Assembly: GCA_030826945.1 (NCBI GenBank)
Contig: JAPQLC010000015.1
Span: 1 to 64,000 of the forward strand
From: Candidatus Thiobius zoothamnicola
Lineage (GTDB): Bacteria; Pseudomonadota; Gammaproteobacteria; Chromatiales; Chromatiaceae
DNA length: 64,000 nucleotides
Direction of reading: 5' to 3'
The notes beneath the pieces were generated by a model. It was not told the origin of the DNA. It saw nothing but the letters and a program-made list of their open reading frames with translations, and searched no databases. Shown here piece by piece: positions 56,047-60,338 of this stretch; within the stretch, counting starts at the first letter, position 1; each line of letters starts with the position of its first letter. Both the position numbers and the translations under genes were made by a program.

Positions 56047-56244
56047 TCAACTTGTTGTGGACAAGACCAACCGGATACCCAGCTGAGCCCATCGCTCAAA
56101 TTCACTGGGCGTCTGATTGCCCAGCGTCGTTTTCATTCGGCGGCCCAGGTGCCAGCCAACCATCCGACGGGAATACAAGTTGATCACCACTGCCAAGTAT
56201 ACCCAACCCGGCAACGTCCAGATGTACGTGATGTCGGTCGTTGC
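56047..56244 (-). pseudogene. IS3-type transposase remnant with internal deletion
   Basis: The minus-strand frame reads ATTDITYIWTLPGWVYLAVV, then SRRMVGWHLGRRMKT, which is the integrase core of IS3-family OrfB. It then jumps to TLGNQTPSEFERWA, the end of that protein (normally RRHSTLGNQTPSEFE). About 90 residues including most of the DDE site are gone, with the join inside the shared TTL. No inverted repeats are visible around it. Confidence 0.75.
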
Positions 56245-56764: not shown

Positions 56765-58744
56765 TCATGCTGTATAGTTTTCAATCGCCTGAATAATAGC
56801 TTGGAGTCGGTCTACGGCCTGTTTTTGGTCAAGATAATCTTTGTAGCTGCGGAATGCATTTTCAAGAAGCTCATCATAGAAGACTAGCCGGGCGTTATAA
56901 TTATCAAGCACACCTCGGAATCGCTCTTGGCCTTTTGGATTAGCCCATTCTCTTGGTGGCTTCCCGAGTACCAAGACCATTTCTAAAGGTTCATCGACTC
57001 CCTGCTTTTCAAGCAATTTAGTGAAGCCACTATAGTACTTTTCAAGTTGCTTGGTTGTTTCTGCAATATCGACAACTCTACTGGGACGTTTTAGTTCAAT
57101 GATAATATGTGTGCCCGCCGACTTTCGATATTTAATATCCAGACGACCTGCCTTTTCTTCCTTTGTAAGCTGGGCATCAACTTCAGAAAACAATTTGTCG
57201 ATCCGGGCTTCCATCAGTTCGGAAGCTTCAACGCGCTCCCAATGAGGATCAAGTAGCCAAAGATGTTCATACAGGAACCTTTGGATGACTTGCTCACGAT
57301 TATCAGCATCGACTTTTTCTTGCAATGTGCGGATCACAGCTACGCGCTGTTGAACTATTTGCCCGTAGAGGTTGCTTTCAAGACTATCTAGCTCACTGAA
57401 TATCTCTAAGACAGAGTCAAGGTTTTCATCATGGATGCGATCCAAGGCGCCAAGGTTTTCATTGGCACGGTGGAATTCAAACGCAAAAACCGCATGTTTC
57501 AGGAGCTGCTTGCGCTCTTCCTGATCATTTGTACGAAGACGGTATATTCGCCCTAGCCAGCTTTTTGCGTTTTTCTTTTGACCAGACGGCAGCTTGTCTA
57601 CCCAGTCAGTCAGCTCAGGTATTTCCAGTGCCTTTTTTGCGCCGTCATCGGTACGCCATTCACTCCACTTGTTTTGGATATGTTTCAGTTCATCACCCAA
57701 TACTTCCTTGAGCTTTATATAACGAGGATCATCTTCAACAAGGTGCTGTCGGCTACTGGTAGCGGCGTCTTCTTGATCGTCTTCATCCAGGATATCTACC
57801 CGTAGCTCACCGATCAGGTATGAGGCATAAACACCACGTTCACTGAAATCATCAAGGATGTCTTCCTGAGCCATTTTCCCGCGGACAAAAATAGCGATTC
57901 TGTTCAAGTTATCGCCACTTTCTTCATCCTTCAATTGACCAGATTCATGTACGGTTCCGAGCCAACCGGAAACGCGAATCCCTTTAGCCTCAACGATTGC
58001 TGTTCGATCTTCAGAATCGCGTGAAAGTGTTGTAGCCAGCGCCACCACATCCTCTTGATTATCGTACGTCCACGTATATTGCAGTTTTGAGTGGTAATCA
58101 CGGTCAGCAGGCGTAATTTGCTCTTCATTTACAAAAACATCGAAATCTTGCTTGGCTCCGATAATGGAAAAACGCCGCGCAATTCTTTTGCGTAGCGCTT
58201 TGGCCGTACTGATAGTTTGTTGTCGGCGTAGGTCACTGAGTACGATTTTGGTGCCTTTGGTAAAGTCTATGCCGTCTATTGATAATTCCGGTGGCCTATA
58301 GATGCCCTGATTCTTGTTTTTGATGGCCTCACGTATATCGTTGAGTTTCATTTGTAGGGCACTTTTCCCGCCATTTTTTACCGTGTAGACTTCGACGGTG
58401 CCAGCGATTGAAAACAGGGAAAGTTTGCCAATTCCCTTTCTCCCCATCGGTGCTCGATTTCGTTCCGGCGTTAAAGGCTCCTGATCTACCCTGCGCTGAT
58501 AACCAACCCTAAGAAAGCGTTCGTTGACTTCTTCTTGTGTCATGCCAATGCCAGTGTCTCGTATTTCAATACGACCTGCGGCACGGTCAAAAGTGATATG
58601 GACTTCATCAGCATCAGCATCCCACGCATTGGCAACGACTTCCGATAGAACTGATGGGACATTGCTATATAGATTAATCCCCAAGTGTTCTAAGACATTG
58701 AGGCTCAGCGTCATTTCATAGGGGGATACTGCTTCTTGGTTCAT
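56765..58744 (-). CDS. GHKL ATPase fused to PD-(D/E)XK-like domain (MORC/MutL-like restriction component)
   Basis: 659 residues. N-terminal GHKL ATPase: EVVANAWDAD with Glu35 and Asn39, DTGIGM (63-68), GRKGIGK (101-107). A transducer-like middle domain contains the conserved lysine-type loop. A helical linker (about 400-490) follows, then a nuclease-like domain with Asp536 in RLDIKY and Glu550/Lys552 in IIIELKRPS, a D-x(n)-E-x-K arrangement. Bacterial MORC/MutL-like ATPases of this layout have been described next to DNA methylases as restriction-modification systems. Its start overlaps the methyltransferase stop (ATGA). Cleavage activity is inferred. Confidence 0.75.
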   Translation of the reverse strand: MNQEAVSPYEMTLSLNVLEHLGINLYSNVPSVLSEVVANAWDADADEVHITFDRAAGRIEIRDTGIGMTQEEVNERFLRVGYQRRVDQEPLTPERNRAPMGRKGIGKLSLFSIAGTVEVYTVKNGGKSALQMKLNDIREAIKNKNQGIYRPPELSIDGIDFTKGTKIVLSDLRRQQTISTAKALRKRIARRFSIIGAKQDFDVFVNEEQITPADRDYHSKLQYTWTYDNQEDVVALATTLSRDSEDRTAIVEAKGIRVSGWLGTVHESGQLKDEESGDNLNRIAIFVRGKMAQEDILDDFSERGVYASYLIGELRVDILDEDDQEDAATSSRQHLVEDDPRYIKLKEVLGDELKHIQNKWSEWRTDDGAKKALEIPELTDWVDKLPSGQKKNAKSWLGRIYRLRTNDQEERKQLLKHAVFAFEFHRANENLGALDRIHDENLDSVLEIFSELDSLESNLYGQIVQQRVAVIRTLQEKVDADNREQVIQRFLYEHLWLLDPHWERVEASELMEARIDKLFSEVDAQLTKEEKAGRLDIKYRKSAGTHIIIELKRPSRVVDIAETTKQLEKYYSGFTKLLEKQGVDEPLEMVLVLGKPPREWANPKGQERFRGVLDNYNARLVFYDELLENAFRSYKDYLDQKQAVDRLQAIIQAIENYTA

Positions 58745-59790
58745 TTTGGATATTCCTTAAGGTGCTGCTTAATCTTTCTTGCGATTGCTTGTCCCAGTAC
58801 AACGGGAACAGCGTTTCCTATCATTCGACCGATACGCTTAAACTCAACCGGCTTTCCGGGTGGAACAAATTTGTAGTCTTTAGGGAAGCTTTGCAGTATG
58901 GCTCCTTCACGCAGTGAAAGGGCTCTGTCTTGTTTAGGGTGGCCAAATCGACCATTACCAAATCCAAAGAATTGTGTGGTGATGGTGGGAGAGGGTTCGT
59001 CCCAACGCATACGACCATAGACGGATGAGTAACCCCTACCTGTTTCTTCGGTGTGGCATTTTGCGACTAAACTTTTATCCCAGTCTCTCCAAGTTCCTCC
59101 AGGTTTTGAAGCTCGGATTCTGCTCAGATTGATTTTTGATAGCCCACTAGCTCGATGGAGCGAGTCTGCATAATGAGCATTTCCGGCAGTGAGAGGAGGA
59201 AGGTCGCCAATCGCATCTTTAACGGTTCGATGGCGGTTTTTATGGGTGGGTTTGGGCAGCGAAATAGGCCCCAGTTTAGATGCCACTAAAACGAGTCGGG
59301 ATCGAGTTTGTGGCAAGCCGTAATCAGGCCCGTAGAGCACTCCATAATCTATGTAGTATTCGAGAGAATCAAGAATGCTTTTAAAATCCTCAAAAACGTC
59401 TCCACCACGGAAGCTCAGCAAACGAGGAACATTCTCCATCGAAATAACATCGGGGACGGTTTCTTTGATGAGTTTTCCGAAATTACTTAGCAACCGCCAA
59501 TTGGGATCATTGTTTTTCTGGTTGTACGTAGAAAATGGCTGGCAAGGGGCGCATCCGACCAAGATTCTAGCCCCTGATGAGGGGTATAGGCTTTCAACAT
59601 CAATCTTGGTGAGTGATCCCACATCACGACAGACAAAAGGAGCATCGTTATTGGCTTCGTATGCGTACCGGCAGCCTTCATCAATATCAATGCCAGCAGC
59701 AATTGGAAAGCCTTCTTGAAAAAAACCATGGGAAAGACCGCCCACCCCGCAGAACAGGTCAACTACAGATGCTGATTTTGTTGTTTTCAT
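58741..59790 (-). CDS. DNA (cytosine-5) methyltransferase
   Basis: 349 residues with all main C5-methyltransferase motifs: DLFCGVGGLSHGF (SAM, I), GCAPCQPFS with catalytic Cys83 (IV), MENVPRLL (VI), QTRSRLVLVA (VIII), ALSLREGAILQSFP (IX) and IGNAVPVVLGQAIA (X). The target-recognition region (about 185-285) is short. It presumably protects host DNA from the ATPase-nuclease encoded by the overlapping downstream gene. The target sequence cannot be inferred. Confidence 0.93.
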   Translation of the reverse strand: MKTTKSASVVDLFCGVGGLSHGFFQEGFPIAAGIDIDEGCRYAYEANNDAPFVCRDVGSLTKIDVESLYPSSGARILVGCAPCQPFSTYNQKNNDPNWRLLSNFGKLIKETVPDVISMENVPRLLSFRGGDVFEDFKSILDSLEYYIDYGVLYGPDYGLPQTRSRLVLVASKLGPISLPKPTHKNRHRTVKDAIGDLPPLTAGNAHYADSLHRASGLSKINLSRIRASKPGGTWRDWDKSLVAKCHTEETGRGYSSVYGRMRWDEPSPTITTQFFGFGNGRFGHPKQDRALSLREGAILQSFPKDYKFVPPGKPVEFKRIGRMIGNAVPVVLGQAIARKIKQHLKEYPK

Positions 59791-59793
59791 GAG

Positions 59794-59979
59794 CTATTTC
59801 CGCTTTGGTTTTCTTCTGTCTGCTAAATCATCCTCAGATACATTGACCCCCTGTTTTTTAAGTGCATTCAGGATGAAGGTGCGCATGGTTTGATTGTTCT
59901 GCAAAGCCATTAACTGGATTTGCCGTTTAACCTTGCTTGGAACGATAATTTGGATTGCTTCTTCATTAGCAACAGTCAC
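59794..59979 (-). CDS. small ribbon-helix-helix-like protein
   Basis: About 61 residues from GTG 59979, chosen because GGGGAG is seven bases upstream; ATG 59994 is an alternative. EAIQIIVPSKVKRQIQLMA then NNQTMRTFILNALKKQG matches the RHH pattern seen in small proteins beside plasmid partition genes. It lies three bases before the methyltransferase and could be its transcriptional controller or a relic of a partition operon. Basic tail (DRRKPKRK). Confidence 0.6.
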   Translation of the reverse strand: MTVANEEAIQIIVPSKVKRQIQLMALQNNQTMRTFILNALKKQGVNVSEDDLADRRKPKRK

Positions 59980-60010
59980 TAAGGAACTCCCCATCGTCCA
60001 GACCAATTTC

Positions 60011-60235
60011 TTACTGAATTAAGATAGCGGTTGGTTGGTCAAGGTCAGCCACTTTTGACTGATCTGCTTGTCCTGCGGGATGCACTTGAGCAAGCTGCAA
60101 GTGGGCTTCTTCTGTCATTTTTCGCCCTTCACTGAGGGGTGCGATGGGGTATTTTCCAAGCGCCATTTCCTGATGCTTACAGGCATGCTTGTAGCGTAAG
60201 CGCCAGAGCAAAGTGGGGTATCGCCGAAGATCTTA
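60011..60235 (-). pseudogene. phage-type integrase arm-domain fragment
   Basis: LLWRLRYKHACKHQEMALGKYP followed by PLSEGRKMTEEAHLQLAQ matches the DUF4102/arm DNA-binding N-terminus of tyrosine integrases. The N-terminal start and the whole catalytic domain are absent; the frame ends at 60011 in unrelated sequence. It marks the right edge of the mobile island before groEL. Confidence 0.55.
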
Positions 60236-60338
60236 GCGGAAATCAGGCGTGCAGTCTAAACCGATATCCCACTTTATATCCCAAGAGAATTGCAACTCAC
60301 TGACACAAGATGAAACAGATTGAATAAGCGTAGGCAAC

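Follow-up and report, generated by a model that had tools for sequence, protein, structure and literature searches.

A probable BbrUII/HgiDII-family restriction-modification operon with a paraMORC3-type ATPase-nuclease in Candidatus Thiobius zoothamnicola

The 64,000-nucleotide stretch of the Candidatus Thiobius zoothamnicola genome analysed here (hereafter, the window) carries three co-directional genes on the reverse strand (56765–59979), which encode a small protein, a C5-cytosine methyltransferase and an ATPase-nuclease (Table 1). We propose that they probably form a complete operon for type II restriction-modification, assigned to the BbrUII/HgiDII family, with GTCGAC as the target, an ATP-gated nuclease and a ribbon-helix-helix (RHH) controller. 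The family itself is already known and its mechanism has been little studied; the present analysis adds the exact family assignment, a predicted target, the reassignment of the ATPase from MORC to paraMORC3, a link to Shedu nucleases and a footprint in the host genome. The system joins three literatures, those on the GTCGAC restriction enzymes (BbrUII/HgiDII), on the paraMORC3 ATPases and on the Shedu nucleases, which we did not find joined in the open papers searched.

Table 1. Features of the operon and its flank (positions in the window)
Feature	Position	Strand	Basis or remark
ATPase-nuclease ORF, 659 aa	56765–58744	-	
GHKL + S5 ATPase module, approximately residues 12–366	57647–58711	-	HATPase_c_3, 3e-19; MORC3 structure match
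C-terminal nuclease domain, residues 452–659, E484 / D536 / E550-x-K552	56765–57391	-	SduA_C; Shedu structure match
C5-cytosine methyltransferase ORF, 349 aa	58741–59790	-	
Small RHH-like gene, 61 aa, GTG start	59794–59979	-	candidate controller
Remnant of an IS3-type transposase (rve integrase core), frame-broken, beside the operon and outside the system	56047–56244	-	PF00665, 1.3e-7

Gene organization and distribution of the operon

The methyltransferase and ATPase-nuclease genes overlap by ATGA, as the ORF coordinates confirm. The small gene that the sequence-only reading placed ahead of the methyltransferase was likewise recovered; its GTG start is preceded by GGGGAG, and the homologues fit this start rather than the alternative, longer TTG start at 60006. 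In 12 loci, the gene that immediately precedes the methyltransferase is a homologue of this small gene; stop and start overlap by 4 bases in eight of them. The 12 members give weak matches to RHH profiles (the best to RHH_10, 9e-4), and a role of this protein as the controller of the operon is plausible. A 14-nt inverted repeat (AAAGTGGGGTATCG / CGATATCCCACTTT, 60210–60223 / 60262–60275) is present between groEL and the small gene and is a possible operator. A scan for promoters and terminators gave no signal in excess of shuffled sequence, promoter-like matches being just as frequent there.

The methyltransferase matches PF00145 (8e-56) and the PADLOC MTase_II profile (3e-90), and contains the DLFCGVGG motif at position 11, PCQ with C83, ENV at 119, QTRSR at 161 and GNAVP at 325. 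The columns of the catalytic residues are at least 97% invariant among 58 homologues, in agreement with the initial description of a full C5 motif set including the catalytic Cys83. In most homologues, the target-recognition region is conserved at least as strongly as the core, as expected if one target is shared across this family. Members of this methyltransferase family are also found coupled to HEPN-like nucleases of the MAE_28990/MAE_18760 type, at one plasmid locus (L244, 2273–4047) and in four other plasmid matches; in L244, the methyltransferase gene overlaps that of the HEPN-like nuclease by 4 bases and a DUF262 gene lies upstream; this coupling suggests that the methyltransferase family is common to unrelated effectors.

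The 659-aa protein matches the NCBIfam model NF050001 (BbrUII/HgiDII family restriction enzyme) over positions 1–659 of 659, scoring 797 bits where the cut-off is 550, and is classified by PADLOC as a type II restriction enzyme. By the NF050001 match, it is a full-length member of the BbrUII/HgiDII restriction enzyme family. Among 80 homologous loci from named genomes, three truncated ones were left out, and in 59 of the 77 informative loci, which span many phyla, a C5 methyltransferase is adjacent, usually with a translational overlap. In 57 of these loci, the methyltransferase gene directly precedes that of the ATPase-nuclease in the same orientation, and in the other two it is adjacent in a different arrangement; the remaining 18 have no adjacent methyltransferase of the same family. 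A consistent absence of methylases from the homologous loci would have spoken against the sequence-only reading; what the loci show instead is a consistent pairing with a C5 methyltransferase.

The family is sparse: in a set of 398 genomes sampled from across the phylum, with the host among them, two pass the NF050001 cut-off, and none of 37 relatives passes it. Members are found on plasmids and as cargo of a P2-like phage, and the ATPase-nuclease and methyltransferase pair is present in 30 of 5426 E. coli genomes, where RefSeq already names several copies "BbrUII/HgiDII family restriction enzyme". The cargo of PhiR44_1, a P2-like E. coli phage, consists of ParaMORC3 and Dcm genes side by side, with 34.5% identity for the enzyme and 52% for the methyltransferase, but the phage pair is convergent, whereas the pair described here belongs to an operon. 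At least seven paraMORC3-like copies were detected in a single archaeal assembly (OY282369.1, uncultured Cenarchaeum sp.), none of which adjoins a methyltransferase of the family found in the operon.

Domain architecture of the ATPase-nuclease

The ATPase module contains an N box (E35/N39), a G1 box (D63-x-G-x-G67) and a G2 box (G101-x-K-G-x-G-K107), whereas the nuclease domain contains an E-D-ExK set that consists of E484, D536 and E550-x-K552. Among 82 homologues, E35, N39, D63, G65, G67, G101, K103, G104, G106, K107, R534 and D536 are invariant, and E484, E550 and K552 are 99% conserved. Given this degree of conservation, neither the ATPase boxes nor the D536 / E550-x-K552 pattern, all of which had been noticed at the outset, can be considered a chance pattern.

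Prokaryotic MORC proteins proper are defined by the GhXhhpXXRhl signature in the S5 domain (Iyer et al. 2008, PMC2292703), whereas paraMORC3 combines GHKL and S5 with a C-terminal restriction-endonuclease-fold domain bearing E-D-ExK, in a restriction-modification context (Iyer, Abhiman and Aravind 2008). The present system shares all these features of paraMORC3: the GHKL motif residues are invariant in the 82 sequences and residues 12–364 of the module can be superposed on the MORC3 ATPase, and, in the nuclease domain, the E-D-ExK residues are conserved and the model matches Shedu and restriction nucleases. None of the 82 sequences, that of the window protein among them, has the S5 signature, so that MORC proper is ruled out and the protein is, by the criteria of Iyer et al., a paraMORC3. 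MutL is ruled out as well, with 26.8 bits against a family cut-off of 180. Many paraMORC3 members are stand-alone according to Iyer et al., whereas the one described here is encoded in an operon with a methyltransferase. The sequence-only interpretation is thus broadly right, although it missed the closest relatives and the ATPase is corrected from MORC to paraMORC3; the N-terminal half is nearest to eukaryotic MORC ATPases.

This proximity comes from comparison of AlphaFold2 models (mean pLDDT 84.4 for the full protein and 83.9 for the C-terminal domain) with solved structures. The N-terminal 366 residues are nearest to MORC3, MORC2, SMCHD1 and MORC4, with Hsp90s just behind; the best match, MORC3, has a Z of 23.6, with 3.8 A over 296 residues. 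The modeled C-terminal domain is nearest to Shedu (8ti8, Z 8.3; 8ti9, 7.7; 8ps5, 7.0; 8ps4, 6.9), and the Shedu entries, which include E. coli SduA, are followed by N.BspD6I and, lower, by EndoMS and FokI. A Z of about 8 is not decisive alone, given that unrelated folds reach 6.5 in the same match list, but the top four entries are all Shedu. At the sequence level, the Pfam family SduA_C (DUF4263) scores 28.8 bits against the isolated nuclease domain, just above the cut-off of 27, and 24.5 bits, below it, against the full protein; among 59 homologues, 28 match SduA_C at an E of 0.01. The suggested structural comparison of the C-terminal domain with restriction endonuclease folds has thus favored the nuclease assignment: as modeled, this domain adopts a PD-(D/E)XK nuclease fold, with Shedu nucleases as the closest solved structures.

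VcSduA is a GHKL-Shedu protein with this layout that confers protection against phage; the protection is abolished by either E27A in the ATPase or K557A in the nuclease (PMC12137116). VcSduA (Shedu type I-D) and the present protein have in common a GHKL ATPase N-terminus, a Shedu-like PD-(D/E)XK C-terminus, the N-box glutamate and the nuclease lysine. However, VcSduA is presented without a methyltransferase and reported to act alone on phage (PMC12137116), whereas the nuclease described here is coupled to a methyltransferase and an RHH-like gene.

The predicted GTCGAC target and its footprint in the host

The target prediction follows from family membership. M.HgiDII is described as an m5C methyltransferase for GTCGAC (PMC5867850), M.BbrUII is reported to recognise the same site, and a related Chania methyltransferase has been predicted to do so (PMC5005818). 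The system resembles R-M.BbrUII of Bifidobacterium breve and HgiDII of Herpetosiphon in its full-length, above-cut-off restriction enzyme and paired m5C methyltransferase, and differs from them in the host and in the small RHH-like gene upstream; the GTCGAC specificity of the present system is a prediction from the family. The earlier portrayal of such pairs as probable restriction systems of which few have been tested was correct as to the type, but the system is less untested than this implied, given the named family, the reported GTCGAC target and the phage-challenge data for VcSduA.

The prediction was made before hexamers were counted in 785 kb of host sequence, about one third of the genome, taken in stretches. 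In this sample, GTCGAC occurs seven times against 111.5 expected and is the second most avoided of the 4096 hexamers, whereas its one-mismatch neighbours are normal (observed/expected 0.82–1.41); in the window itself, there are no occurrences against 10.6 expected. In four relatives without the system, the ratio is 0.73–1.11. The loss of GTCGAC in the host fits long exposure to an enzyme that cuts this site. Other palindromes are about as strongly avoided in the host (GGGCCC, 0.05; GAGCTC, 0.08; CCGCGG, 0.10), so that the chance of the predicted site falling among the two lowest of the 64 palindromes is about 3%, and the loss supports the predicted specificity without proving it. In the sampled stretches of the host, GGGCCC, GAGCTC, CCGCGG and CGGCCG are avoided unusually strongly, to a degree that the relatives do not reach.

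Among ten other hosts of the system, a clear loss of GTCGAC is seen in only three (0.34–0.38). The contrast between hosts and non-hosts has a raw p of 0.008, or 0.036 after normalisation for general palindrome avoidance, and ranks fourth of 40 palindromes, i.e., is not specific to GTCGAC; we therefore do not take it as proof.

Mode of action, alternatives and genomic setting

We propose that the methyltransferase would introduce 5-methylcytosine at the GTCGAC sites of the host chromosome. The cognate restriction enzyme might dimerise and, on ATP binding, close as a MORC/Hsp90-type clamp that samples DNA, whereupon two Shedu-like PD-(D/E)XK domains, placed by the clamp, would cut DNA with unmethylated GTCGAC. 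The RHH-like protein could bind the operon promoter and thereby restrain the nuclease until methylation has taken place. The specific notion of an RHH-controlled system in which an ATP-driven clamp of this type licenses site-specific cleavage of unmethylated GTCGAC by a Shedu-type nuclease is put forward tentatively, as somewhat less than an even bet; the open literature searched yielded no statement on whether cleavage by any member of the BbrUII/HgiDII family depends on ATP. If true, this scheme would bring BbrUII-type restriction and Shedu defence together, and the question of what MORC ATPases originally did would become testable. With a predicted target sequence, ordinary plasmid DNA is enough to assay what a MORC-like ATPase contributes to DNA cleavage.

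One alternative is that the operon is a restriction-modification system with another target, the GTCGAC loss being due to an earlier or different host system. Several other palindromes are equally avoided and the host has EcoO109I-like, N6/N4 methyltransferase plus HTH and type I-like methyltransferase systems, all of which is compatible with this explanation; nevertheless, GTCGAC was predicted in advance and ranks near the very bottom of all hexamers, and the recognition region is conserved in the methyltransferase family, so we consider a different target unlikely. A sensor of phage DNA structures or ends, akin to Shedu type I-D or VcSduA, with the methyltransferase a mere neighbour and not an antidote, would account for the proximity of the nuclease domain to Shedu, for the phage restriction by VcSduA, which has the same architecture and is presented without a methyltransferase, and for the homologues that lack an adjacent methyltransferase. 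Such a sensor seems improbable, however, given that the C5 methyltransferase is directly upstream and mostly translationally coupled in the majority of the loci, that the adjacent methyltransferase nearly always belongs to one family with a conserved recognition region, and that the score of the 659-aa protein greatly exceeds the cut-off of a family that takes its name from site-specific restriction enzymes.

Still another reading, to which we assign very little weight, is that the locus has decayed, with the methyltransferase still active and the nuclease silent. The broken transposase remnant nearby and the result of the promoter scan are in line with decay, but both frames are intact, every catalytic residue is kept, and the loss of GTCGAC suggests long-lasting restriction pressure. 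The initial description of an intact copy in a decayed island accordingly holds for the operon and in part for its surroundings, where decay is real but modest. We therefore favor the complete BbrUII/HgiDII-family operon, with GTCGAC as the predicted target.

The operon is flanked by comM-BMFP on one side and groEL on the other. Downstream of comM-BMFP, the relatives examined have glnK/amtB-type or other genes, and none of them was found to have groEL at this place, which indicates that the junction at the operon was acquired or rearranged.

The host encodes further restriction systems, in which GTCGAC specificity is not evident. On contig C34 (~145.6 kb; L170, 698–2289), an N6/N4 methyltransferase is accompanied by an EcoO109I-type restriction enzyme whose coding sequence is divided between two overlapping frames; elsewhere, there are a type I-like methyltransferase and an N6/N4 methyltransferase beside an HTH-containing gene. 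Contig C19 (119639–124424) carries a second restriction-type cluster with a GHKL link; it consists of a C5 methyltransferase, a Vsr endonuclease, a 374-aa gene in a response-regulator-like position and a 737-aa protein with HATPase_c_3 and a histidine-kinase-like ATPase, an organization that resembles the paraMORC/Response_reg_2/Vsr arrangement of PMC8011034.
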